64,000 nt of DNA from Vulcanimicrobiota bacterium (GTDB lineage: Bacteria; Vulcanimicrobiota; Vulcanimicrobiia; Vulcanimicrobiales; Vulcanimicrobiaceae). Each line of letters starts with the position of its first letter. Position 1 is the first letter of the stretch. The notes below the pieces were generated by a model that was not told the origin of the DNA, did no database searches, and saw nothing but the letters and a program-made list of their open reading frames with translations. The stretch spans positions 62,001 through 126,000 of the forward strand of contig DAIDGX010000023.1 of the NCBI GenBank assembly GCA_027452165.1, written 5' to 3'. A program made the translations under genes and the position numbers. Below, one piece after another: positions 7,679-25,283 of the stretch.

Positions 7679-8398
7679 TCATTTTACAGTAGTCTGAGAA
7701 AGCGCCGCCCGTACCGCCACGCAGTGCGCGGCGACCCGGGACGCGAGTTCCATGCTACGCGACGGGGTTTCGAAGGTGAGGGTGCGCGCCGAGGCGTTCC
7801 GCCGCAACAACAAGGAGAACGAGAGCCCACCGATCTCGGCGGCCTCGCGGTGCGGATCGGGGCGCAGGCATCCTCGCAAATCACACGGCGCGCCGCTCGC
7901 GTGCACGGCCTCGAGCACGCGTTCACCGATGCCGCCGTCGTCGTACGCGTAGCAGTAAAACCCTTCGGCCTCATCGTCTTCGTGCAGATCGAGCGCGAGC
8001 ACGTATGTGCGATCGCGATTGGCCGTGACGATCGCGCGCGCCTCGGGCGAAGCACCGCCACGTCCGAAGGTGCGGTTAAGGTCGAGGCCGTCGGCGCTTA
8101 CGCGTGTCGCACGCTCGTATCCCGTCGGGTTCACGCACGGCCACAAGCGATACGAAAAACGCGGATCGAGCGCATTTTCCTCGGCAAGTTCGAGCAATGC
8201 GAGAACGCCCGCAGGTTCATCGCCATGCATGCCGGCCGCAATGGTGACGACCGGGAGCGAAGGATCGCCACATTCGGCGCAGAGCAGCGTGCGCGGCGCA
8301 CCGACGCACGCGACCTCACGCACGCGCATGTCGGCGGCGACGCGGAGCGCTTTCCAGCGCCGCTCGAGGTCGAGGTAGGTGGGCCTCTGTGAAGTCAT
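7679..8398 (-). CDS. Succinylglutamate desuccinylase/aspartoacylase (M14) family protein
   Basis: 239 residues, zinc-dependent carboxypeptidase-like fold. AAGMHGDEPAG supplies the HxxE zinc ligands, CVNPTGYERATR and GLDLNRTFG give the substrate Arg/Asn part, and ALDLHEDDEAEGFY gives the third zinc His. These match AstE/AspA-type enzymes that cleave N-acyl amino acids or peptides; the real substrate is not evident. It stands divergent to the LOG-like gene with 14 bp between the start codons and ends 33 bp upstream of the ETF-QO gene on the same strand, possibly in one transcript. Confidence 0.85.
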   Translation of the reverse strand: MTSQRPTYLDLERRWKALRVAADMRVREVACVGAPRTLLCAECGDPSLPVVTIAAGMHGDEPAGVLALLELAEENALDPRFSYRLWPCVNPTGYERATRVSADGLDLNRTFGRGGASPEARAIVTANRDRTYVLALDLHEDDEAEGFYCYAYDDGGIGERVLEAVHASGAPCDLRGCLRPDPHREAAEIGGLSFSLLLRRNASARTLTFETPSRSMELASRVAAHCVAVRAALSQTTVK

Positions 8399-12520: not shown

Positions 12521-12984
12521 CCAACCTTCTCCACGACGGCGCGCGACGGCATGTTCTCGGGAACGATGATGCACACCGCTCGTTCGTACGTGAGGTGCAG
12601 ATCGCCCCAGGCCGTAACCGCGTGGGCCGCTTCGCTCGCATAGCCGCGGCCATGGTACGCCGATGCAAGCGCAAACCCGAATTCGGGCACGCCGCGCATC
12701 GAAGGCGCGATCGCGCGTTTGAAGTCGGCAAACCCAATCTCGCCCACGAACGCGCCGCTCTCGCGATCTTCCATCAGCCAATAGCCGAAGCCGAGCAGCG
12801 CCCAGGCTCCGGCGTATCCCAGCAGGCGCGCCCACGTCTGCTGCTCGCTCGAGGGCTTGCCGCCGATGTACCGGGTGACGATGGGATCGCCCCACATAGC
12901 AACGCACGCTGCGAGATCCTCGGCGCGGTGGGCGCGTAAGCGCAGGCGTTCCGTCTCAATGACGGGCGCGTTCACGACGCGCAT
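12421..12984 (-). CDS. GNAT family N-acetyltransferase (RimJ/RimL type)
   Basis: 187 residues from ATG at 12984. TERLRLRAHRAEDLAACVAM is the RimJ-like N-terminus, YHGRGYASEAAHAVTAW carries the acetyl-CoA pyrophosphate-binding Q/RxxGxA-like loop, and VPENMPSRAVVEKVGYR is the C-terminal GNAT signature. An upstream extension in the same frame lies inside senB and is not homologous. The start overlaps the senB stop by 13 nt, so it is translated with senB. Whether it acts on a selenium metabolite or is a general acetyltransferase cannot be told. Confidence 0.85.
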   Translation of the reverse strand: MRVVNAPVIETERLRLRAHRAEDLAACVAMWGDPIVTRYIGGKPSSEQQTWARLLGYAGAWALLGFGYWLMEDRESGAFVGEIGFADFKRAIAPSMRGVPEFGFALASAYHGRGYASEAAHAVTAWGDLHLTYERAVCIIVPENMPSRAVVEKVGYRCFDRATYNDAPILFFERRAARSRVSFSRDR

Positions 12985-13934
12985 GCCGAGTCGATGACGC
13001 CAAGCAACAATCGACGTTCGCGCGCCGGCGCGACGAGCGGCTTCAACCGGCGTACGTGGGCGCACAGCCTCCGCAGAAACGCGCCATCCTCGATGCAGCG
13101 TGCCATCAGGCGCGCGCACGCGCGCGTGTCGCCGACCGCATAGTACCCCGGATAGGACGCGCCAAGGATACCGCGGTTTCCCGAGATGCGCGAAGCGATC
13201 ACCGGGACACCGGCGGCGATCGCCTCGCTGAGCACGTTCGCGCCGCCTTCCATCCGCGAGCTCAACACGAGCGCCGTGCTGCTGGCGAGTACACGTACCG
13301 CGCGCGCATGTGAGAGCTCCCCAAGGTAACGGTAACGGGGATCGCGCACGGCGATCCGATAAGCGGCACGCAGATAGCGTTCGTCGAGTGCGGCTCCCGC
13401 CTGAACCACGCGGATCGGCGCATCATGCGCGAATTCGCGCAAGGCATAGGCGGCTCGCAGGGGATCTTTCTCGACCCGCAAGTGACCAAGCACGCAGAAT
13501 TGCGCGCGCCGGCCTACACCCGCAACGGCGCGACGCCGCGGTGGCGGCGTTGCCGACTGCACGATCGGCGTAACTTTGGCGCGCAGACGCGGCGGAATGC
13601 GCGATAGCGCGTCGGGTTGCAGCGTGACGATCCGCGTGGCGAGTTCGAGTACCCGCTGTGCGCGCTTCGAACGCGCGAGGTCACGATAGATGTCGGTTCC
13701 GGTTAGCACGGCAATGATTGGGCGCTCGGGGTACGCGCGCGCAAACGCGCGCACGGAAGTTGCGCTCTTGCGTGCGTGGAGCGCGATCAGCATATCGAGC
13801 GGCTCACCGCTCCACAACGGTAGCATCCGGACACGGTGGCCGGCAGAACGCAGAAACGCCGCATAGCGCTGCGCCGTTTGCACGTTCCCCGTGCGGCGCG
13901 TCGCGGCCGTTGGTGAGACGATGCCGATGCGCAC
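12972..13934 (-). CDS. senB: Selenosugar synthase SenB (TIGR04348-type glycosyltransferase)
   Basis: 320 residues from GTG at 13934. In the described sen pathway SenB couples selenophosphate to a UDP-sugar to make a selenosugar. The N-terminus RIGIVSPTAATRRTGN, then LLWxGEP-like and MLIALHARKSATSV, AVLTGTDIYRDL and IVTLQPDALSRIP match the TIGR04348 family as I recall it; the second half is a GT4-like domain with EGGANVLSEAIAAGVPVIAS. A longer frame to 14210 exists but lies inside senA. It is divergent from senA with 36 bp between start codons and translationally coupled to the GNAT gene. An ordinary GT4 glycosyltransferase is the alternative, but the pairing with senA and selD makes SenB strongly favoured. 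Confidence 0.9.
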   Translation of the reverse strand: MRIGIVSPTAATRRTGNVQTAQRYAAFLRSAGHRVRMLPLWSGEPLDMLIALHARKSATSVRAFARAYPERPIIAVLTGTDIYRDLARSKRAQRVLELATRIVTLQPDALSRIPPRLRAKVTPIVQSATPPPRRRAVAGVGRRAQFCVLGHLRVEKDPLRAAYALREFAHDAPIRVVQAGAALDERYLRAAYRIAVRDPRYRYLGELSHARAVRVLASSTALVLSSRMEGGANVLSEAIAAGVPVIASRISGNRGILGASYPGYYAVGDTRACARLMARCIEDGAFLRRLCAHVRRLKPLVAPARERRLLLGVIDSACAS

Positions 13935-13947
13935 AAGAGTTTGATTT

Positions 13948-13967
13948 CGTGGCGTAGAAGCGCCACG
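13948..13967. promoter_or_regulatory. Inverted repeat between senB and senA starts
   Basis: A perfect 7-bp inverted repeat (CGTGGCG and CGCCACG, 6-nt spacer) fills most of the 36-bp gap between the divergent start codons of senB and senA. It could be an operator controlling both genes or a hairpin in the senA leader. No Shine-Dalgarno sequence is visible before the senA ATG. Function is inferred from position only. Confidence 0.4.
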
Positions 13968-13970
13968 CCT

Positions 13971-15221
13971 ATGAGCGCGCTCGATCTTCGCGCCGCCCTG
14001 TGCGACGCGCGGGCGCGGACTCTCGGCTACGTTAGCGATCTGCGCGACGAGCAACTCGACGTTCCGCTCGCGGCGACCGTGAACCCGATGCTCTGGGAAC
14101 TCGGCCACGTCGCCTATTTTGCCGAGTTTTGGACCTCGCGCACGCTCTCGAACAGACGGCCGATCCGCGACGACGGCGATCGCCTCTACGATTCCGCGCG
14201 CATCGCGCACGATGACCGATGGTCGCTACCGCTGCCCGATCGTGCGGGAACGCTCGCCTATCTCGACGAGCAACTCGCGCGCACGCTTGCGGATCTCACC
14301 AGCGATCCGAGCGCATCCGCCGCCTACCTCCATCGCCTTGCGCTCCACCATGAGGACATGCACGGCGAAGCGATCGTGTACACGCGCCAAGGGCTCGCGT
14401 ACCCGCAGCCCAGCCTTCCCGAACACCACGCCGCGCCGCAGGGTAGGCCCACGGGCGAGCACGTAGCGATTCCCAGCGGCACCTACCGCATCGGTGCTCG
14501 ACCGAGCGACGCATTCGTCTTCGATAACGAGAAGTGGGAGCACGACGTGCATCTCGCGTCTTACGCGATCGCACGCGAGCCGGTGACGAACGCCGAGTAC
14601 GCCCGCTTCGTTGACGCGGGCGGCTACGCGAACGCGATCTATTGGAGCAGCGAGGGTCGCGCATGGCTGCGTGAGTCCGGGGCACGGCATCCGCTCTACT
14701 GGCGCCGTCACGAAGGCGGCTGGGAGCGCCGTTCGTTCGACCGCTGGCTGCCGCTCGCGCCGCACGAACCCGCCGTTAACGTGAACTACTTCGAGGCAGA
14801 AGCCTACTGTGCGTTTGCCGGCAAGCGCTTGCCGAGCGAAGCGGAGTGGGAAGTTGCCGCAACCGGCGGCTCGCGGCGCACCTATCCGTGGGGCGAAGCT
14901 GCGCCGACACCCGAACTCGCAAACCTCGACGGCTGGTATGGCGAGCTCACCGAGGTCGGCGCCCTTCCCGCAGGCGAGAGCCCTTTCGGCGCGCGCGACA
15001 TGCTCGGCAACGTGTGGGAGTGGACGGCGACCCCCTTCGGTCCGTATCCCGGCTTTGCGCCGGATCCGTACCGCGAATACTCCGAGCCGTGGTTCGGCGA
15101 TCATCAGGTGCTGCGAGGCGGCGCGTGGAGCACGCGCGCGCGCATGGTCACTACCCGCTGGAGAAACTTCTATCGCCCGCAACGGCGGGACATCTTAACG
15201 GGGTTTCGGACGTGTGAGTAG
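13971..15221 (+). CDS. senA: Selenoneine synthase SenA (EgtB-like non-haem iron enzyme)
   Basis: 416 residues. An N-terminal DinB-like domain holds the iron ligands: NPMLWELGHVAYFAEFW (first His) and ALHHEDMHGEAIVYTRQ (HxxxH). A C-terminal formylglycine-generating-enzyme-like domain follows, with LPSEAEWEVAAT, MLGNVWEWTATPF, VLRGGAWSTR and RNFYRPQRRDI. EgtB joins gamma-Glu-Cys or Cys to hercynine; SenA joins a selenosugar. HEDMH followed by EAxxYTxQ and the adjacent senB and selD favour SenA over EgtB. ATG at 13971 is chosen; an in-frame upstream ATG at 13941 would leave only 6 bp to senB. A hercynine-forming EgtD is not in this window and must come from elsewhere. The end overlaps selD by 8 nt. 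Confidence 0.88.
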   Translation: MSALDLRAALCDARARTLGYVSDLRDEQLDVPLAATVNPMLWELGHVAYFAEFWTSRTLSNRRPIRDDGDRLYDSARIAHDDRWSLPLPDRAGTLAYLDEQLARTLADLTSDPSASAAYLHRLALHHEDMHGEAIVYTRQGLAYPQPSLPEHHAAPQGRPTGEHVAIPSGTYRIGARPSDAFVFDNEKWEHDVHLASYAIAREPVTNAEYARFVDAGGYANAIYWSSEGRAWLRESGARHPLYWRRHEGGWERRSFDRWLPLAPHEPAVNVNYFEAEAYCAFAGKRLPSEAEWEVAATGGSRRTYPWGEAAPTPELANLDGWYGELTEVGALPAGESPFGARDMLGNVWEWTATPFGPYPGFAPDPYREYSEPWFGDHQVLRGGAWSTRARMVTTRWRNFYRPQRRDILTGFRTCE

Positions 15222-16257
15222 AGAGGATCTGCATCGGCTGACGCACTTGTCCTCGTGCGCGGGTTGAGCCGCCAAGATGGACGCCGGCGTCCTCGCGCAA
15301 GTCTTGCGCGATCTACCTCCGATCGATGACCCAAACGTGCTCGTCGGCACCTCGACCGCCGACGACGCGGGCGTGTATCGACTTCGCGACGATCTCGCCC
15401 TCGTGCAGACCGTCGATTTCTTCACGCCCATCGTCGATGACCCATACACGTTCGGTGCGATCGCTGCGGCAAACTCGATCTCCGATGTGTACGCGATGGG
15501 CGGACGCCCGATCAGCGCGCTCGCCATTGCGGCATTTCCAGAAGCGATGGATCCGCAAACGATCGGGGCGATTTTACGCGGCGGTGCCGAAAAGGCGCGC
15601 GAAGCGGGGATCAACATCATCGGTGGCCACACGATCAAAGATGACGAACCCAAATACGGTCTTGCCGTCACCGGCGTGATCCACCCCGAACGCATTTTGC
15701 GAAACTCGACCGCGCAACCGGGCGACGTGCTCTTGCTGACGAAGCCGCTCGGCACCGGCATCCTCACGACCGCCCGGCGTAGCGACCGTATCGACGACGC
15801 AGCGCTCGCCGAAGCAATCTCCGCGATGGTCACCCTCAACCGCGGCGCGGCCGAGGCCTTCGAGCATTGTGCGATCCACGCGGCGACCGACGTCACCGGG
15901 TTCGGCCTGCTCGGCCATCTGCGCGAGATGGTTGCCGGCGCACGCGCCGGCGCCGAGATTCACGCCCACCGCGTGCCGTACCTTGCCGGCGCCCTCGAGC
16001 TTGCACGCGAGAACGTTGTGCCCGGCGGCACGAAGACCAACCTGCGCAATGCGCTAGAAACGGGAACGCGCTTCGACGGCGACGTCGAAGCGGCGCTCCA
16101 CCTGCTCCTCGCCGATGCACAAACCTCGGGCGGTTTGCTGGTCGCGGTCGCGCCGGCCGATGCGATGCGCTACGTTCAACAAGCCGCCGCACGCGGTGTG
16201 CGTGCGGCGGAGATCGGCGTGATCACGAGCGAGCCGGGGATTCGGGTGCGCGCGTAG
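15214..16257 (+). CDS. selD: Selenide, water dikinase SelD/SenC, selenocysteine-containing
   Basis: Makes selenophosphate from selenide and ATP, for Sec-tRNA and, here, selenosugar synthesis. Read from GTG at 15214, which overlaps the senA stop, the frame gives 347 residues with an in-frame TGA at 15265-15267 (residue 18). The context LTHLSSCAG-TGA-AAKM matches the SelD active-site loop, where Cys or Sec is followed by the essential Lys (residue 21). Further motifs: DPNVLVGTSTADDAG, VQTVDFFTPIVDDPYTFG, GGHTIKDDEPKYG and ATDVTGFGLLGHL. Starting instead at the ATG at 15277 would delete the catalytic loop. GGGG lies 8 nt before the GTG. A SECIS-like hairpin follows the UGA. Position after senA makes it the SenC of the cluster. 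Confidence 0.93.
15279..15292 (+). other. Putative bacterial SECIS hairpin in selD
   Basis: GGACG and CGTCC pair perfectly around a CCGG loop (or a 6-bp stem with a 2-nt loop). The stem starts 11 nt after the UGA at 15265-15267 and the loop GG lies 19-20 nt downstream, within the spacing of known bacterial SECIS elements such as fdhF, whose apical loop GG binds SelB. This is inferred from geometry; no fold was computed. Confidence 0.6.
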
Positions 16258-16275: not shown

Positions 16276-17349
16276 CTACGAAAAGCCCGGAATCAGCGAG
16301 ACCACGACACCGGCGATGAGCCCGGCGACGATCACCGCGGCCATCGCAAGCGCGAGCACCCGTTTCGGGAAGGCGCTTCGCACGATGAAGAGCGTGGGGA
16401 GGCTGATCGCAGGTAGCGTGACGAGCAGCGTTGCCGCAGGCCCCGCGCCGAGACCGAAGGCCATCAACGTCTGCACGATCGGAACCTCACCGGCGGTCGG
16501 AATGACGAAGAGCGTTCCGATGACCGCAAGCGCGAAGAGCACGAGCACGCTTCCACCCGCAAGCGTGAGCCCCGGATGGAAGAACCACGCACGCGCCGCG
16601 CCGAGCAACAGCACGAGCACGAAGTAGCCCGGGACGATCGTGTAGAGCTCCCACCAGAGGAGCTTCAGCCAATCGACGAGCATGTCGAGACCGCTCTTGT
16701 GGGGGTCTTCGATCGGTGCATCTTCGACGTCGATATCCACACGATCGGCGACGACCCGGTTGGCTAGCATCGCCGCACCGAAGACGAGTGCGATGCCGAC
16801 GATAAGACGCACCAGCATGAATTTCCAGCCGAGTACGCCCGTGATGAAGATCAGAACCGCGGGGTTGAGACCCGGATTACCGAGCAGAAACGCGAGGGCC
16901 GCCCCCGTTGACGCGCTCTGTTTGCGAAGGCCCACTGCCAGTGGACCGGTGCAGCATGTTCACATCATCCCGCCGAGCGAGAGCGTTCCCGCTATCGCCA
17001 CGGATCGGAAATCCTTCCCCGAAAAGATACGATGGATCCATCTGCGCGGCACGAGCACTTGAATGCTCGCGCCAGCGATCAGCGCCAGCGCGAGTGCCTG
17101 CCAGATCAGCGAATAGTAGGTGAGCGCATATTGCCACGCAGCCATCAGGCCCGCGGCCGGAGGAATCGCGCTCTTGCCGCTAACGATCGAGGCTCCGATC
17201 GAGTGGTGCGAAAGCGCAATGAAGCTCTTGTTGTAGTAGGGCAACCATTTGACGTACAGCAGCCCGGCTGCCAACGTAACGAGAAAGATTGCGGTGCCAC
17301 CGACCAGCCGCGATCGATCGGCACCTAACGACGGTGCTTGGCTCGACAT
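16276..17349 (-). CDS. DUF318/ArsP-type permease with in-frame UGA, predicted selenoprotein
   Basis: Polytopic membrane permease of the YraQ/ArsP_1 family. From ATG at 17349 (Shine-Dalgarno AAAGGGGAACG) the frame runs 357 codons with one TGA at 16960-16962 (residue 130). Across it the protein reads GGMM-TGA-TCCTGPLAVGLRK, the family's Cys-rich signature (MMCTCC.APV.VGLR in relatives I recall), so the TGA stands at the first conserved Cys. Hydrophobic segments occur before (IFLVTLAAGLLYV, ALALALIAGASIQVL) and after (AVLIFITGVLGWKFMLV and several more to the C-terminus) in the same frame. A SECIS-like hairpin follows. Called naively it would be two genes, the second from a GTG at 16935 with no ribosome site. 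It follows the FAD oxidoreductase by 27 bp and converges on selD. Transport of a selenium, arsenic or thiol compound is possible; the substrate is unknown. Confidence 0.85.
16929..16947 (-). other. Putative bacterial SECIS hairpin in the permease gene
   Basis: On the minus strand GGTCCAC and GTGGGCC form a 7-bp stem (one G-U pair) with loop TGGCA. The stem begins 12 nt after the UGA at 16960-16962 and the loop GG lies 21-22 nt downstream. This nearly equals the geometry in selD, and both loops contain GG, the feature contacted by SelB in known bacterial SECIS elements. No energy calculation was made. Confidence 0.6.
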
Positions 17350-17376: not shown

Positions 17377-18612
17377 CTAGGCCGTCCATTCCAGTAAACT
17401 CTGCCACTGAGATTTGGAAAAACGCTCCTTCGATTTGATCGCTTCGACGTACTTCCGCTTGCCCGCACGGTTGCCTTTTCCAAGCATGATGCCGCCGACC
17501 AGACGTTCGTCCCAGAAGAATAACGCCCGGTACCAGCGTTTTTCACGATCGATCGCTCGCACCGTTTCCAATTCCGGCTGAAGGTCGGGCGAAAGCCCAA
17601 ACTGCGTGATGGTCTGCCCTTTGAAGAGCAGCGACGAATACTCCGGCACGTCATGATAGGCAACGCTTCCGCCCATCATGTTCTGCGCCGCGACCTTACC
17701 GTGGGCCCCCGCATTGTTCCACGTCCCCATGCGATAGCGCATCTCGAGAATCGGGTCAAAAAAATCGGCGACATCGCCGGCTGCGAAGATACCCGGCACG
17801 TTCGTCTCAAGTCGATCGTTGCAGCGGATACCGTTTGCACCGGCCTCGATAGGCGTTCCCTGCGCGAGTTCGACGTTCATCGTGAGGCCGAAACCGACGC
17901 CGTAACATTGCGCCTCAATCTGCTCGCCCTTCTTCGTGCGCACCTTGGTGACAACGCCGTTCGAGCGAACGAACTCGACGACTTCGTCTCCATAATGCAA
18001 ATGCACGTTCTCCGCTCGTGCCGCTTCATCGACGAACGCACCGGCGACGTCGTCGAGCAAGCGGTGCAACACGTGCGGTCCACGCAAAATCCAGTGCGTC
18101 TCCACCTTACGCGCAGCAAACGCCTCGGCCAGTTCGTAGGCGATGAACGAACCGCCCACCGCGACCGCCGCACGCGAGCGGTCGATCTGCTCGGAGATCG
18201 CCCGCGTATCGTCAAGGTACTGAAAGTTGAAGACGTTCTGTGCGCCCGTCGCCCCCGGCGCCGGCGCCGCGTTTGGACGCCCGCCCGTGGCAAGGAGCAA
18301 GGCATCGTATCGATATCCGCACCCGTCCGCCATCACGGCGCGCTCCTCCACATCGATCCGCTCGACCGCGGTCCGTAACCGGAGCGCGATACGATGCTGC
18401 TCATGCCACGCGAGGTCGCGCATCATGACCTTCTCTTCGGGTAGTTGACGCCGCAGCATGGGCGGCAGCGATATCCGGTTGTAGAGCGGGTAGGGCTCGT
18501 CGCCGAAGAGCGTAATCTCACATGCGGGGTCGTGCTTTCGCAACTGCTCGGCCGCGGTTGTTCCGGCAAAGCCATTCCCCACGATGACGTACCTGCGAAC
18601 GTCGTCTGCCAC
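17377..18612 (-). CDS. FAD-dependent pyridine nucleotide-disulfide oxidoreductase (NirB-N/ferredoxin-reductase-like)
   Basis: About 411 residues. RYVIVGNGFAGTTAAEQL binds FAD, EPYPLYNRISLPPMLRRQLP is typical of NirB/rubredoxin-reductase-like proteins, VAVGGSFIAYELAEAFA is the NAD(P)H site, and NVPGIFAAGDVADFFD is the second FAD motif. There is no redox CxxxxC, so electrons probably go to a protein or metal centre. GTG at 18612 has GGGAG 7 nt upstream; an ATG at 18630 is an alternative. It precedes the selenopermease by 27 bp in one operon, so a redox role linked to that transporter is plausible but unproven. Confidence 0.85.
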   Translation of the reverse strand: MADDVRRYVIVGNGFAGTTAAEQLRKHDPACEITLFGDEPYPLYNRISLPPMLRRQLPEEKVMMRDLAWHEQHRIALRLRTAVERIDVEERAVMADGCGYRYDALLLATGGRPNAAPAPGATGAQNVFNFQYLDDTRAISEQIDRSRAAVAVGGSFIAYELAEAFAARKVETHWILRGPHVLHRLLDDVAGAFVDEAARAENVHLHYGDEVVEFVRSNGVVTKVRTKKGEQIEAQCYGVGFGLTMNVELAQGTPIEAGANGIRCNDRLETNVPGIFAAGDVADFFDPILEMRYRMGTWNNAGAHGKVAAQNMMGGSVAYHDVPEYSSLLFKGQTITQFGLSPDLQPELETVRAIDREKRWYRALFFWDERLVGGIMLGKGNRAGKRKYVEAIKSKERFSKSQWQSLLEWTA

Positions 18613-20300: not shown

Positions 20301-21185
20301 TTAGAAGTTGTAATACACGCGTACGATGCGTGTTCCCGGGGCGGGTTCGCAGAACGAGCTGCCGGGCGAGAACGTGGAGAGCGTGACCGCCTGTAAGGCG
20401 GCTTTGTTGAAGTTGGTGTTGTCCGACGGCACCCAGATGCCGGCATCCTCAAGCGTCCCGTCGGCCCCGACGGCTACGCGAATATCGGTCCACGCACGGT
20501 GACTGACCGTATATCCCTCCGGCAACAGCGGCTGCACGGTCCGCTTTACCGTGATGGGCGTGGAGGGCGTCGGACAATCGGTCGTACCCGGTGCCGGCAT
20601 GCTCGTCGCGACAATGACGGGCGCCTGAGCAGACGGCATCCGATCGAGGTCGGTGCGCGGGTTGAGCAGATGGACAGACGTGCCGTTAATGTCGTTGCTC
20701 TGGTATGCATCCTGTGGTGCCGGGGCCCCAAAGCCCGCCGGTGCCTGGCACATAAACGTGCCACGGTCGGCCCAACCGAAGAGCGTGTCGTCGGGAGCAG
20801 CGGCGGAACGCACGAACGCGCCGAGGACCTTCACGGCGCTTGGAAAGCGCACGTAGAGCGCATCCGAGCTAAACGTGCGCCGTTTGAATTCGGCAGCTGG
20901 GCCTTGCCAGGTCTGCACGCGCGGAACGAGTGCGGTTGACGGCACTTGCACGTCGTACCAACCGGTATTCGTTTGCACGGCAACGTCCGCCGTGACATGC
21001 CGCGCACTATACGCCTTTAGCGTGAAGCTATAGAGCGCCGCGGCGTTCTTGCCGTCGAGTGGATGGAATGCGCCTGCCGTCGCGGGACAGAATTCCACCG
21101 CCGCCGACGCACGCGTACCGGTCGTAAGTCCAAGTGCGAGGAGCGCGACAAAGGGAGCCACAAGGCCGAAGATCACTCGTTTCAT
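20301..21185 (-). CDS. Secreted TonB-C-like protein, paralogue A
   Basis: 294 residues from ATG at 21185, with AAGGAGA as ribosome site. N-terminal signal peptide (VIFGLVAPFVALLALGLTTG, cleavage after ASA). Then VEFCPATAGAFHPLDGKNAA, a region shared with the two genes upstream, and a C-terminal segment with the TonB_C pattern (IRVAVGADGTLEDAGIWVPS, ALQAVTLSTFSPG). Such domains usually contact outer-membrane receptors, but without a membrane anchor or ExbBD nearby the role is open. Last of three tandem copies. Confidence 0.78.
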   Translation of the reverse strand: MKRVIFGLVAPFVALLALGLTTGTRASAAVEFCPATAGAFHPLDGKNAAALYSFTLKAYSARHVTADVAVQTNTGWYDVQVPSTALVPRVQTWQGPAAEFKRRTFSSDALYVRFPSAVKVLGAFVRSAAAPDDTLFGWADRGTFMCQAPAGFGAPAPQDAYQSNDINGTSVHLLNPRTDLDRMPSAQAPVIVATSMPAPGTTDCPTPSTPITVKRTVQPLLPEGYTVSHRAWTDIRVAVGADGTLEDAGIWVPSDNTNFNKAALQAVTLSTFSPGSSFCEPAPGTRIVRVYYNF

Positions 21186-21260
21186 AGGGCTGTCTCCTTG
21201 CATACGCATGCGCATGACCCCTTGAGTCGAAGCGCCCAGACTGGTGAAATTACCGCCATG

Positions 21261-22130
21261 CTAGAAGGGCGAAAACCGCACCCAAAACAGATACGTTCCC
21301 GGCGCGGACTCGCAAAACGATCTGCCGGCCCTGAAAATCGAGCGCCTGGCAGCCGACAACGCGGCAGCGTCGAGCGCACGGTATCCTGATGGAGCGTACA
21401 CCCGCGCATCGACGAGCCGCCCTCCCGGCGAGATGGAGATGCGTACGCCCACGTTCACCGCGTACGGAATATTCACCCCGAATGGATACGATGCCGGCGC
21501 TGCCCGCACGACCGACGCGTTGAGAAACGGGTGCGCGCATGCAGTCGAGCCAGGAGGCGTCATCAAACGAGCCTGCGCCACGAACTCGCCCGCAGCCGGC
21601 ATCCGGCTCAGATCGGTGCGCGTGCTCGTATTGTGAATTGCCACCTGATACGGGCTCGCAGGTCGCGTGAGCCCGAAACCGGCCGGAGCCTGGCACGTGA
21701 ACCGTCCAAGCTGTCCCCACCCGAAGCGCGTCTCGTCGGGAGCGGAGGCCGAGAGCACGAATGCATCGAGTACTTTGAGTGCGCTCGGAAAGCGCACGTA
21801 CAACGGTGCGGATGTAAAAACCGTGCGTTGAAACCGACGGCCGCGGAGTTCCAAATGTTCTATTCGTAGGTTGAGTACGGTTGGGCGTACTTTTACGCTA
21901 TACCAGCCGGCGTTCGTATCGACGGCGACATCCGCAGCGACATGACGCGCGCTCTTGGCATCCAACGCAAAACTATAGAGCGTTGCCGCGGTTTTGCCGT
22001 CGAGTGGCGTAAACACGTCGATTTTCGCAGGGCAAAATTCGCTTGCGGCCGACGCACGGGCGGCTGTCGCACCGCCAACGGCAACAATCAACAGCAGCGG
22101 CGCAAGAACGATGAGAAAGGCGCGTTTCAT
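21261..22130 (-). CDS. Secreted TonB-C-like protein, paralogue B
   Basis: 289 residues. Signal peptide FLIVLAPLLLIVAVGGATA ending ASA, then SEFCPAKIDVFTPLDGKTAA and FPSALKVLDAFVLSASAPDE, clearly homologous to the neighbour at 20301-21185 (ending FCESAPGTYLFWVRFSPF against FCEPAPGTRIVRVYYNF). The C-terminal ISPGGRLVDARVYAPSGYRA is the TonB_C-like part. Function not known; tandem duplication is evident. Confidence 0.78.
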   Translation of the reverse strand: MKRAFLIVLAPLLLIVAVGGATAARASAASEFCPAKIDVFTPLDGKTAATLYSFALDAKSARHVAADVAVDTNAGWYSVKVRPTVLNLRIEHLELRGRRFQRTVFTSAPLYVRFPSALKVLDAFVLSASAPDETRFGWGQLGRFTCQAPAGFGLTRPASPYQVAIHNTSTRTDLSRMPAAGEFVAQARLMTPPGSTACAHPFLNASVVRAAPASYPFGVNIPYAVNVGVRISISPGGRLVDARVYAPSGYRALDAAALSAARRSIFRAGRSFCESAPGTYLFWVRFSPF

Positions 22131-22201
22131 AGCGACGACCCGTTACGCCGGCGCGTGCACGATCCCTTGAACAGGATTACCCATGGCAGTGTCAGCAATC
22201 C

Positions 22202-23041
22202 TCATCGGAATATTACGGGAAAACGATACTCTCCCCACGTGGGTTTGCAAAATGCGCGCCCTGCCGCGTACACCGAATGACGCGCTGCGCGCAGCGCTTG
22301 CCGGTCGAGACCAGCATCGCCCGAGGTTGCATGGATCCTCGCATCCACGACCGCCCCCGTCGGCGCGACGAGCACATCGACGATCGCTTCGGTCGGGCGT
22401 GGGGTATCCACATCCCACGGCCGGTCGTGTGCCTGCGCTTCGAAGGTCATCTGCGCGGGAGCGAACGCAAGCGCACAATCAACGCGCCCCGGAGGCGGAA
22501 TGTACACCGCGCGCAAGGGGATCGCCGATGGCGGTGGCGACGCGAACACGTCCGTGCGGGGATTCTCGATTCGCGCATGCGTTCGTACGATCGGCTTGGG
22601 TGTCGCGGGTGCGATCACGTGCACGCCGACGCCTGCGGGTGGCGTGCAGGACACCGTTCCCTGCGCATCACGAGCGCGCATGACGTAGATCGCATCGAAT
22701 CGCGCTCCGACCGGAAATTGCGCGTAGAACGGTTTGGACTCGTACGAACGTTGCGTGAAGCGAGCAAGACCGCTCGCACGGCGATAGTCATAGGGCGTCA
22801 ACGCGACCGTGGGAAAGTTGAGCGCATACCAGGTGTCGTCCGCGTGAAACGCGATCGTCCCGCTCACCGATAGCGCGCCCCTAGCCTCCAGCGTTACGCT
22901 GTAGATCGGCGCATCCGGCGCCCCCGCGACGCGATGCACCTGAGCGACGCGCACCGGGCAAAACGGATTCAGCGCCGCCGCATGCACCGTGCCGCATGTC
23001 GCGACCATGCACAAAAAGAGGACGCAGAACGTTCGTCTCAT
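22202..23041 (-). CDS. Secreted TonB-C-like protein, paralogue C
   Basis: 279 residues from ATG at 23041; signal peptide FCVLFLCMVATCGTVHA. NPFCPVRVAQVHRVAG corresponds to the N-terminal region of the two downstream paralogues, but the similarity is weaker. The C-terminus has VDVLVAPTGAVVDARIHATS and ALRAARHSVYAAGRAFCKP, the TonB_C-like repeat. An upstream in-frame extension to 23137 has no signal peptide and is not used. First of three tandem genes; divergent from the dehydrogenase operon. Confidence 0.75.
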   Translation of the reverse strand: MRRTFCVLFLCMVATCGTVHAAALNPFCPVRVAQVHRVAGAPDAPIYSVTLEARGALSVSGTIAFHADDTWYALNFPTVALTPYDYRRASGLARFTQRSYESKPFYAQFPVGARFDAIYVMRARDAQGTVSCTPPAGVGVHVIAPATPKPIVRTHARIENPRTDVFASPPPSAIPLRAVYIPPPGRVDCALAFAPAQMTFEAQAHDRPWDVDTPRPTEAIVDVLVAPTGAVVDARIHATSGDAGLDRQALRAARHSVYAAGRAFCKPTWGEYRFPVIFR

Positions 23042-23103
23042 GGCGGCGAGCGGTTGCGCGCGGGCGGAGGATTTCCTTTCCTCCGCTCGCACTATCCACG
23101 ACT

Positions 23104-24135
23104 GTGGCATCCAAAAGCAAACCCGCCGCGAAGGCACGCTTCGAACGACACGGGCTCACCGACGAGCAACTCGTCGAGATTCTGCGTATCATGCTCATGC
23201 ATCGCACGCTCGAAGGGCGCGGCTTTCAGCTGAACCGCCAAGGCAAGATTCCCTTTGCTTCCGCCGGCGAAGGACACGAAGGCGTGCAAGCGGGCGCGGC
23301 GATGGCCTTCCAGCGCGGCCGCGATATATTGGTCCCGTACTATCGCGATCTCGGGCTCGATCTCGGCGTCGGCCTCACACCGTACGAGGTCTTGCTCTCG
23401 CTCTTCGCGCGCAAGGCCGATCACTCGGGCGGACGCCAGTTTCCGCACCACTATGCCTCAAAACGCCTGGGCATCCACACGATCAGCTCGGTGCTCGCCA
23501 CGCAGATCCCGCACGCGGTTGGCGCCGCCTATGCGCTGAAGGTCCGCGGCGAGCGCGGCCGGGCGGTCCTCGTTACCTTCGGTGAGGGATCGACCTCGGA
23601 AGGCGAGTGGCATGAGGGCATGAACTTCGCGGCGGTCCACAAGCTGCCGGTCGTCTTCCTCTGTGAAAACAACGAGTGGGCAATCTCCACGCCGGCCGAC
23701 AAGCAGATGGCGAACCCCAACGTCGCCGACCGCGCCGTGGGGTACGGCATGCCGGGCGTCATCGTCAATGGCTTCGACCCGGTCGCCGTCTATGCCGTCG
23801 TGAATGAGGCGATGGAGCGCGCCCGCTCCGGCGGCGGCCCGACCCTCGTCGAGGCCAAGTGCTATCGCTTCCTCGCCCACACCACCGACGACGACGACCG
23901 CACCTACCGCTCGCGCGAGGAGGTGGAGCGCCGCCGCCGGGATGACCCGGTGCCCAATTTCGAACGGCTGCTCGTGGAGCGGGGCGTGCTCACCCCGGAG
24001 GGTGCGGAGTCGCTCAAGAAGGCGGTCTTGGCCGAAGCCAACGCCGCGACCGACCGAGCCGAGGCGATGCCCTACCCTGCCCCGGCCGACCTCTACACCC
24101 ATGTGTACGCCGGCGACCACGCCCCCTGGCGCTAA
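23104..24135 (+). CDS. 2-oxoacid dehydrogenase E1 alpha subunit, copy 1
   Basis: 343 residues from GTG at 23104. Thiamine-diphosphate-dependent decarboxylase subunit of a branched-chain 2-oxoacid or pyruvate dehydrogenase. ThDP/Mg motif: FGEGSTSEGEWHEGMNFA ... ENNEWAIST. The usual GDG is GEG here, as also in mammalian BCKDHA, so it is probably active. YYRDLGLDLGVGLTP and the phosphorylation-loop-like FLAHTTDDDDRTYR are typical. The operon continues with a second E1 alpha, then E1 beta and E2. A bulged hairpin (24138-24160) follows its stop codon. Confidence 0.9.
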   Translation: MASKSKPAAKARFERHGLTDEQLVEILRIMLMHRTLEGRGFQLNRQGKIPFASAGEGHEGVQAGAAMAFQRGRDILVPYYRDLGLDLGVGLTPYEVLLSLFARKADHSGGRQFPHHYASKRLGIHTISSVLATQIPHAVGAAYALKVRGERGRAVLVTFGEGSTSEGEWHEGMNFAAVHKLPVVFLCENNEWAISTPADKQMANPNVADRAVGYGMPGVIVNGFDPVAVYAVVNEAMERARSGGGPTLVEAKCYRFLAHTTDDDDRTYRSREEVERRRRDDPVPNFERLLVERGVLTPEGAESLKKAVLAEANAATDRAEAMPYPAPADLYTHVYAGDHAPWR

Positions 24136-24137
24136 TC

Positions 24138-24160
24138 GGCTCGCGGAAGCGTTCCGAGCC
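24138..24160 (+). other. Hairpin between the two E1 alpha genes
   Basis: GGCTCG ... GGAA and TTCCGAGCC can pair with a 2-nt bulge just after the first E1 alpha stop codon, in the 122-bp gap before the second. There is no T-run, so it may stabilise the upstream mRNA or attenuate transcription rather than terminate it. Confidence 0.35.
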
Positions 24161-24257
24161 GCCGAAGGCGAACACCTACCCACGCACGTGTACCGTAGAT
24201 TCGCGTCGGCCTGCGCGCCGGCTCGAGTGCTGATTCCCGTCACTTGACAAGGACAAC

Positions 24258-25283
24258 ATGGCGAAGACTGACACCAAGGCGAACGCCTTAGATCGTCGCG
24301 GGCTGACCGACGAACAGCTGCGCGCGATCTTCCGTAACATGCTGTTACAGCGGCAACTCGACAACCGCGGCTTCCAACTCAACCGCCAAGGCAAGGTGCC
24401 CTTCGCGCTCGGCTCCGAAGGGCACGAAGCGCTGCAGGCGGGCGCCGCGATGGCCTTCGAACGCGGCAAGGATATCCTCGCGCCGTACTATCGCGATCTC
24501 GGACTAGCGCTCGGTATCGGCCTTACGCCGTACGAGATCATGCTCTCGATCTTCGCGCGCGCGGCCGATCACAACGGTGGACGTCAGTTCCCGAACCACT
24601 ACTCATCGAAGCATGCGGGGTTGATGTCGTTCTCGTCGATTCTGGCTGCGCATATACCGCATGCCGTCGGCGCCGCGTACGCGATGAAGTATCGTGGCGA
24701 GAACGGGCGCGCGGTGCTCGTCACGTGCGGCGACGGTACGACAAGCGAAGGCGAGTGGCACGAGTCGATGAATTTTGCCTCGATTCACAAGCTGCCGCTC
24801 GTGATGCTGGTCGAGAACAACGAATGGGCAATCTCTACGCCGCTCGACAAACAGATGGGGCAGCCCGAGATTTGGAAGCGTGCCGCCGGTTACGGCATGC
24901 CGGGCAAACGCTTCAACGGCTACGATCCCGTTGAGACCTATGCGGTCGTGAAAGAGGCGCTCGATCGCGCGCGCTCGGGAGGAGGCCCATCGCTCGTCGA
25001 AGGCACCTGCTACCGCTTCCTCGCGCACTCGACCGACGACAACGACATGACCTACCGCACGAAAGAACTCGTCGCGGAAGCGCGCAAAAACGATCCGGTT
25101 CCGGCGTTCGAACATCGGTTGATCGAAGCCGGCGTTATGACCGCCGCCGATGTGGACGCCCTACGCAAAGACGTGTTGCGCGAAACCAACGAAGCGACCG
25201 ACAAGGCCGAAGCGATGCCCTACCCGCAAGCGTCGGACCTCTATACGCACCTGTACGAAGGAGCCTGGCAGCCGTGGCAGTGA
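24258..25283 (+). CDS. 2-oxoacid dehydrogenase E1 alpha subunit, copy 2
   Basis: 341 residues with ATG at 24258 (ACAAGGACAAC upstream). Same layout as copy 1 (GFQLNRQGKVPFALGSEGHE, YYRDLGLALGIGLTPYEIML), with the ThDP motif CGDGTTSEGEWHESMNFA having the standard GDG. Its last codons overlap the E1 beta start, so this copy is the one translationally coupled to E1 beta. The two copies probably arose by tandem duplication and may serve different substrates or conditions. Confidence 0.92.
   Translation: MAKTDTKANALDRRGLTDEQLRAIFRNMLLQRQLDNRGFQLNRQGKVPFALGSEGHEALQAGAAMAFERGKDILAPYYRDLGLALGIGLTPYEIMLSIFARAADHNGGRQFPNHYSSKHAGLMSFSSILAAHIPHAVGAAYAMKYRGENGRAVLVTCGDGTTSEGEWHESMNFASIHKLPLVMLVENNEWAISTPLDKQMGQPEIWKRAAGYGMPGKRFNGYDPVETYAVVKEALDRARSGGGPSLVEGTCYRFLAHSTDDNDMTYRTKELVAEARKNDPVPAFEHRLIEAGVMTAADVDALRKDVLRETNEATDKAEAMPYPQASDLYTHLYEGAWQPWQ

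Follow-up and report, generated by a model that had tools for sequence, protein, structure and literature searches.

A YraQ-type permease with a predicted selenocysteine, encoded in a selenoneine-type gene cluster, as a candidate selenium transporter

Introduction

Do two adjacent open reading frames, separated by a UGA codon, encode a single membrane transporter that contains selenocysteine (Sec), and if so, what does that transporter carry? The question is raised by a locus in 64,000 nucleotides of DNA from a Vulcanimicrobiota bacterium, and we refer to this entire stretch as the window. A preliminary description of the locus, made from the sequence alone, proposed that the two apparent genes are one reading frame for a DUF318/ArsP-type permease with Sec at the first cysteine of its signature, that such a protein might be new, and that the transporter might be linked to selenium. 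No dedicated selenium transporter is known (PMC13188914; PMC11097638). We wish to separate what can be said about the decoding of the UGA from what can be said about the function of the protein.

Results

One reading frame with a single interruption

The features on which the decoding question turns are as follows.

16276..17349, minus strand: Sec-containing YraQ-family (ArsP_1/PF03773) permease gene, 357 codons plus stop, assigned by profile match and by the conserved UGA in relatives
16960..16962, minus strand: in-frame UGA (Sec, U130) at the first position of the C(S/T)C signature, assigned by codon alignment with relatives
16929..16947, minus strand: SECIS-like hairpin of 8 bp with the loop GGC at +21 to +23 after the UGA, assigned by folding and comparison of relatives

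Under the standard code the two halves of the permease appear as two separate open reading frames. The frame that runs from 17349 to 16276 on the minus strand, however, comprises 357 codons and is interrupted only once, by the UGA at 16962-16960. When this codon is read through, the result is a single protein of 357 amino acids with U130 in the context GGMM-U-TCCTGPLAVGLRK, that is, GGMM-U-TCC around residue 130. The ATG is preceded by the Shine-Dalgarno-like sequence AAAGGGG. ArsP_1/PF03773 is the only Pfam domain found (E 5e-26); it extends over residues 81-351 and covers both halves, and the read-through protein scores 92 bits, above the gathering cut-off of 32.3. The proposal that the two apparent genes are one frame broken by UGA is confirmed, a single domain spanning the break. 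The signature is U-T-C in the window and C-T-C in the Cys forms, as in the C(S/T)C motif of the ArsP_1 superfamily, which is present, within a membrane segment, in all ArsP homologues surveyed (PMC4435449).

The assignment to an ArsP-type permease holds at the level of the superfamily and not for ArsP proper. Judged by its full-length similarity, together with the GMM-x-TCC signature, the protein is a member of the YraQ subfamily, and it is 44% identical over 345 amino acids to E. coli YraQ (b3151), an uncharacterised permease. No curated YraQ model was found in the profile libraries searched.

The UGA codon among relatives

The alternative to Sec is that the UGA is a true stop, so that the locus either holds two genes or a pseudogene, or else reflects an error of sequencing. 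We compared the U130 codon across relatives. The named relatives of the window genome (2.64 Mb) are Candidatus Eremiobacterota, and a search of 149 Eremiobacterota genomes returned a permease relative in 23, of which 12, the window genome included, have TGA at exactly the U130 codon. The Cys sequences inspected in the Eremiobacterota, L048 and L052-L059, have TGC or TGT there. A scan of GTDB genomes yielded one further UGA case, L084 (Candidatus Rokuibacteriota), amid Cys forms from Proteobacteria and Bacillota; when 95 genomes of its phylum, the Methylomirabilota, were searched, four relatives were found and all four carry UGA at this codon. The 13 Bacillota relatives found in an even sample contain no internal stop, and none is a Sec form.

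In total, UGA occupies the U130 codon in 16 genomes of two phyla, so that it recurs in 15 genomes besides that of the window, and TGC or TGT occupies it in about 70 distinct relatives. The column is thus a cysteine column, as the preliminary description had stated, and the UGA is not peculiar to one assembly. A tree made without the Sec residue requires at least four changes between Sec and Cys, all of them forced by well-supported branches. On the C-terminal side of the UGA, comparison with three close relatives gives dN of 0.06-0.11 and dS of 0.47-0.76, and hence dN/dS of about 0.08-0.2, which indicates purifying selection. Reassignment of UGA was considered and ruled out: several of the same UGA-containing permease genes terminate with TGA, and so the code is not reassigned.

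The genome also encodes the machinery that Sec requires. It has a tRNA-Sec (selC) with anticodon UCA (71.7 bits, cut-off 47), SelA (497 bits, cut-off 268) and SelB (319 bits, cut-off 242), so that the absence of selA, selB and selC, which had been named as grounds for doubt, does not apply. The presence of SelB does not discriminate between Sec and Cys genomes, since 31 of 33 have it.

The hairpin downstream of the UGA

A bacterial Sec codon is expected to be followed closely by a SECIS hairpin whose loop begins with G, and a 7-bp hairpin with GG in its loop had been described 21-22 nt downstream of the UGA. The hairpin and its GG-containing loop stand; its stem is one pair longer than described, and its loop, GGC, lies at +21 to +23. 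In the window the sequence is GGUCCACU-GGC-AGUGGGCC. An 8-bp stem whose loop starts at +21 is present in 15 of the 16 UGA genes, with the loops GGC, GGU or GGUC, and in none of the 79 Cys rows (71 distinct genes, since 8 of the rows repeat Eremiobacterota genes already counted). Three stem sequences occur: GGUCCACU/AGUGGGCC in Eremiobacterota, GCCCCAGU/ACUGGGGC in Methylomirabilota, and a third, with a four-base loop, in L051. The sole UGA gene that lacks the stem is L060, which is disrupted inside the hairpin.

The L060 locus (genome G083, UGA at 8027, minus strand) deserves a brief description. Its Sec permease is broken directly after GGTCCACTG within the hairpin, and only the first 138 residues match; the adjoining senA and senB look intact.

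Folding energy does little to identify the element. The z-score of the window hairpin is -1.3, which is weak evidence, and total folding energy does not separate Sec genes from Cys genes. When synonymous codons were randomised, with several hairpin offsets allowed, about 5-8% of draws produced the stem for most Eremiobacterota genes, 17% for L051 and 1% for Methylomirabilota. Because random draws do reach the stem, no single gene is proof of the hairpin, and the case is carried instead by the common position and by covariation. Across 14 sequences, 88 of 88 cells are paired (100%), compared with 35-62% in slid controls; in two of the pairs both bases change, and covariation scores 0.34, compared with 0.15 in shuffles. 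Among nine Eremiobacterota genes, moreover, the five hairpin codons that are invariant in amino acid are also invariant in codon, versus 2 of 24 such codons elsewhere, in an ungapped comparison that loses register beyond indels. A search of the window against Rfam gave no RNA, and Rfam need not include a model of this SECIS. Comparative evidence thus supports a hairpin of the SECIS kind, an 8-bp stem being present in nearly every UGA gene, with compensatory changes between the stem sequences. Located 12 nt downstream of the UGA, this hairpin would direct SelB and tRNA-Sec to read codon 130 as selenocysteine.

We can now weigh the two explanations of the UGA. A true stop would account for the two separate reading frames under the standard code and for the unremarkable folding energy of the hairpin. 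It is contradicted by the same UGA in 16 assemblies from two phyla, by purifying selection beyond the codon, by a covarying hairpin that is confined to UGA genes, and by the Sec machinery encoded in the genome. We consider a true stop very improbable. On this comparative evidence, the UGA column, the hairpin and the machinery together, the UGA at codon 130 is very likely decoded as Sec, at the first cysteine of the signature as had been proposed.

A selenoneine-type cluster

The preliminary description overlooked the setting of the permease, which is a selenoneine-type cluster in the order senB-senA-selD-permease.

12972..13930, minus strand: senB-like selenosugar synthase, its start being an estimate based on the model match (TIGR04348, 353 bits, cut-off 300)
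13941..15221, plus strand: senA-like selenoneine synthase, start may be 13974 (NF041186, 501 bits, cut-off 420)
15214..16257, plus strand: selD, itself Sec-encoding (SSCAGU, UGA at 15265-15267; TIGR00476, 394 bits, one TGA)
17377..18612, minus strand: NAD(P)/FAD-dependent oxidoreductase, start uncertain, 27 bp upstream of the permease

SenA and SenB both score above their cut-offs and adjoin SelD. In selenoneine synthesis, SelD/SenC supplies selenophosphate, SenB forms a selenosugar, and SenA joins selenium to hercynine (PMC10891094). A sequence search of the PDB places the SenA-like protein nearest to OvsA (selenoxide synthase), and only then to SenA; the exact product of the cluster may therefore not be selenoneine. 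The start of selD is probably the GTG at 15214, which overlaps the end of senA; standard gene calling would begin the gene at 15277 and lose the Sec loop. The permease does face selD, as had been noted, the two genes converging with ends at 16276 and 16257.

The oxidoreductase upstream is probably co-transcribed with the permease, and it is kept beside the permease in L041-L043, the nearest relatives. This FAD-dependent enzyme may act as a redox partner for the Sec site. A scan of neighbouring genes in the window recognised no ars gene. Elsewhere in the window we observed three adjoining paralogous secreted proteins with TonB-like C-terminal ends (20301-23137), and two adjacent paralogues that resemble dehydrogenase E1 alpha subunits (22996-25283).

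Selenium genes beside the permease in other genomes

Among the 149 Eremiobacterota genomes, 23 encode the permease, 30 encode SenB and 21 encode both (Fisher p=1.6e-16); with selD, which is present in 118 of the 149, there is no correlation (p=0.16). Both tests ignore shared ancestry. In the window, as in most Eremiobacterota loci with enough flank, the permease has sen genes, selD or both no more than about 4 kb away, and this holds for Sec and Cys forms alike. Two senB matches with one in-frame TGA were also seen (G069:C29:4369-5310 and G112:C20:2250-3008), and these may be decayed genes, errors or something else.

Of the 59 loci L081-L139, 41 have selD, selU, selA/B or sen genes at most about 6 kb from the permease, a count that excludes repeated loci and one weak SenB match in L084. 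Cys forms of Proteobacteria adjoin selD-selU (Paraburkholderia) or selU (Caballeronia), selU preceding the permease by about 70 bp in Burkholderiaceae, or they adjoin selA-selB-selD with formate dehydrogenase (Dyella, Rhodanobacter, Methylocella). In two Methylomirabilota Sec forms selD adjoins the permease and a LysR-type gene is nearby. On a plasmid of Ligilactobacillus salivarius (L163, NZ_CP047413.1 48000-80000), a YraQ-type permease stands at the edge of a complete selenium island that comprises yedE, yedF, selD, selA, selB, DUF3343, prdA-D, TusA and a YeeE protein. Where selD is not adjacent, 25 of 27 permease genomes have it elsewhere, and selD occurs in 38.3% of bacteria (PMC5322559).

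There are also permeases outside this pattern. In the even sample of Bacillota, selD is nearby in only 1 of 13 permease loci; a permease copy on a Paenibacillus plasmid has no selenium neighbours, and no selenium genes lie near E. coli yraQ. Given the Bacillota count and the unlinked E. coli gene, the wider family may have another or a broader substrate. Several Bacillota loci carry a divergent LysR gene whose product is 35-40% identical to the LysR beside selD in L186. Related LysR-type regulators are found near the permease in L183, L184, L185, L186, L188, L085, L146 and L147, and in L186 the regulator stands beside a selD-permease pair; by a loose resemblance, these regulators may be the LysR_Se subfamily of PMC5322559. 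The neighbours of the permease in L070 (Clostridium carboxidivorans) include a molybdopterin oxidoreductase, ferredoxin-type proteins and a TatC-like protein, and these genes possibly form an operon for a reductase of selenium oxyanions or the like.

The suspected link between the transporter and selenium is thus borne out, in gene order, by the senB-senA-selD cluster and by three selenium traits elsewhere. Judged by these neighbourhoods, the link is far stronger than the mere facing of selD.

Predicted structure

AlphaFold2 yields a confident model of the permease (pLDDT 92, pTM 0.90). The model places U130 between helices 114-125 and 131-143, and a conserved P-T-x-G-E segment (284-288) between two other helices. 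The best structural neighbours of the model are NaDC1, Pho90, INDY, the sulfate transporter NaS1 and ArsB, at Z of about 10-11 and rmsd of about 4-6, values that the tool places in its range for a possibly common arrangement. Foldseek gave no match at E<=0.001, and a sequence search of the PDB gave no relative of the permease. This pattern suggests a possible elevator-type secondary transporter of the DASS/INDY/ArsB kind. The protein is predicted to be a polytopic membrane transporter with its U-T-C signature at the break between two helices.

Discussion

What might the transporter carry, and in which direction? By analogy with ArsP, in which organoarsenicals are believed to bind at C(S/T)C, the U/C-T-C site may bind a soft, selenium-containing substrate, for which Sec would be the stronger ligand. 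The transporter would then serve the selenium pool that feeds SelD and, through it, the synthesis of selenoneine (SenB, SenA), Sec and selenouridine. That the function of the permease is linked to selenium we hold with good confidence, on the strength of its neighbourhoods. The fuller reading, a Sec-form YraQ permease that transports a selenium compound by way of a Sec/Cys substrate site, we regard as probable. Relatives repeatedly adjoin genes that use selenium, which makes a dedicated selenium transporter a good candidate role for the permease. A more sweeping proposal is that YraQ-type permeases beside selD, selU, selAB or senAB are the first dedicated selenium transporters, with a subset in two phyla that has placed Sec in the substrate site and so made its synthesis dependent on the element carried; our judgement of this proposal is evenly balanced.

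As to direction, uptake is our tentative first guess, because the common partner is SelD and not one product. Against uptake, the characterised or predicted members of the superfamily (ArsP, SO_0444, SaoE) are exporters, and it is odd for a cell to meet selenium scarcity with a transporter whose own production requires selenium. Export of excess selenium is almost as likely. As a safety valve, the Sec permease would expel excess selenide, selenite or an organoselenium compound, and its Sec content would allow full synthesis only when selenium is plentiful, so that regulation would be automatic. Dependence on Sec suits such a valve; ArsP transports organoarsenicals, related families are named efflux transporters, and export has been proposed for the selenium-linked YedE (PMC5322559). 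SelD, however, is Sec-encoding and serves assimilation, so export does not follow from Sec dependence, and adjacency to selU and selAB fits supply equally well.

Two further explanations, both of which we judge unlikely, concern the substrate. The permease might transport selenoneine or its selenosugar intermediate, as would befit its tight co-occurrence and adjacency with senA and senB in Eremiobacterota and in L117; yet the members from Burkholderiaceae and Rhodanobacteraceae adjoin selU or selA/selB, with no senA or senB detected nearby, and in L. salivarius the neighbours are proline-reductase genes. Since what the neighbourhoods share is SelD and not a single end product, selenium supply or homeostasis fits the neighbourhoods better than selenoneine export. 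Alternatively, the protein might transport arsenic or a metal in the manner of ArsP/SO_0444, with Sec as a metal ligand, its selenium neighbours reflecting selection for closeness to Sec-decoding genes. The superfamily offers precedents, SO_0444 too has a Sec form (PMC13188914), and most Bacillota members have no adjoining selenium genes. But in Proteobacteria it is Cys forms, which need no selenium, that adjoin selD, selU and selAB; the scan of window neighbours recognised no ars gene; and against the SO_0444 and SaoE models the protein scores far short of the cut-offs.

A transporter of selenium compounds thus remains our preferred reading, and it offers a concrete candidate that gene neighbourhood links to the use of selenium in Sec, selenouridine and selenoneine. 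Cys forms occur in cultivable Paraburkholderia, Dyella and Ligilactobacillus, and the E. coli homologue, yraQ, is uncharacterised. The permease would add a subfamily of selenoproteins in which Sec resides in a membrane transporter and not in a soluble redox enzyme. It also carries a warning for annotation, which splits Sec-permease genes at the UGA.

Comparison with known systems

No YraQ-type protein appears in a 2026 catalogue of 119 prokaryotic selenoprotein families, which does list a Sec form of SO_0444 (NF033936, motif UxC), annotated in GenBank only (PMC13188914). The possible novelty of the Sec permease is thus upheld for the YraQ-type form and not for the ArsP_1 superfamily, which has a precedent in SO_0444. 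Among the papers listed by our literature search, none names YraQ; an earlier mention in the SAO, selenoprotein-neighbourhood or original sen literature is possible.

E. coli YraQ and the window permease share the GMM-x-TCC signature and an N-terminal YVKW..PYY region; the E. coli protein has Cys where the window protein has Sec, and in the tree it sits on a long branch, apart from the selenium-linked proteobacterial group. SO_0444, annotated for Cu/Zn efflux, is a related permease with a CxC signature. The window permease scores 54.5 bits against its model NF033936, below the curated cut-off of 300. The CSC of L151, a Cys-type member with 22% identity, aligns with U130, and the same site therefore appears to gain Sec in two distant subfamilies, the aligned L151 itself being Cys-type. 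The best NCBIfam match is the efflux transporter SaoE (NF040736; E 9e-21, 74.4 bits, below the cut-off of 325), which belongs to the SAO system and is absent from the Sec table of PMC13188914. The organoarsenical permease ArsP (C. jejuni type) is of the same superfamily and likewise carries the motif C(S/T)C within a membrane segment (PMC4435449), but belongs to a different subfamily, for which no selenium link is described.

YedE/YeeE, an earlier candidate selenium transporter (PMC5322559), is likewise a membrane protein linked to selD and known in a Sec form, and in L. salivarius it is encoded beside the YraQ-type permease. It belongs, however, to a different family (PF04143), which the window permease does not match, and its deletion in Methanococcus gave no clear selenium-uptake phenotype (PMC11097638). 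Compared with the senABC cluster of the Variovorax type (PMC10891094), finally, the window has in common SenA, SenB and SelD side by side, over curated cut-offs. It differs in that its SelD is a selenoprotein and in that it adds the Sec permease, whereas the SenB paper mentions no transporter for the senABC cluster (PMC10891094).
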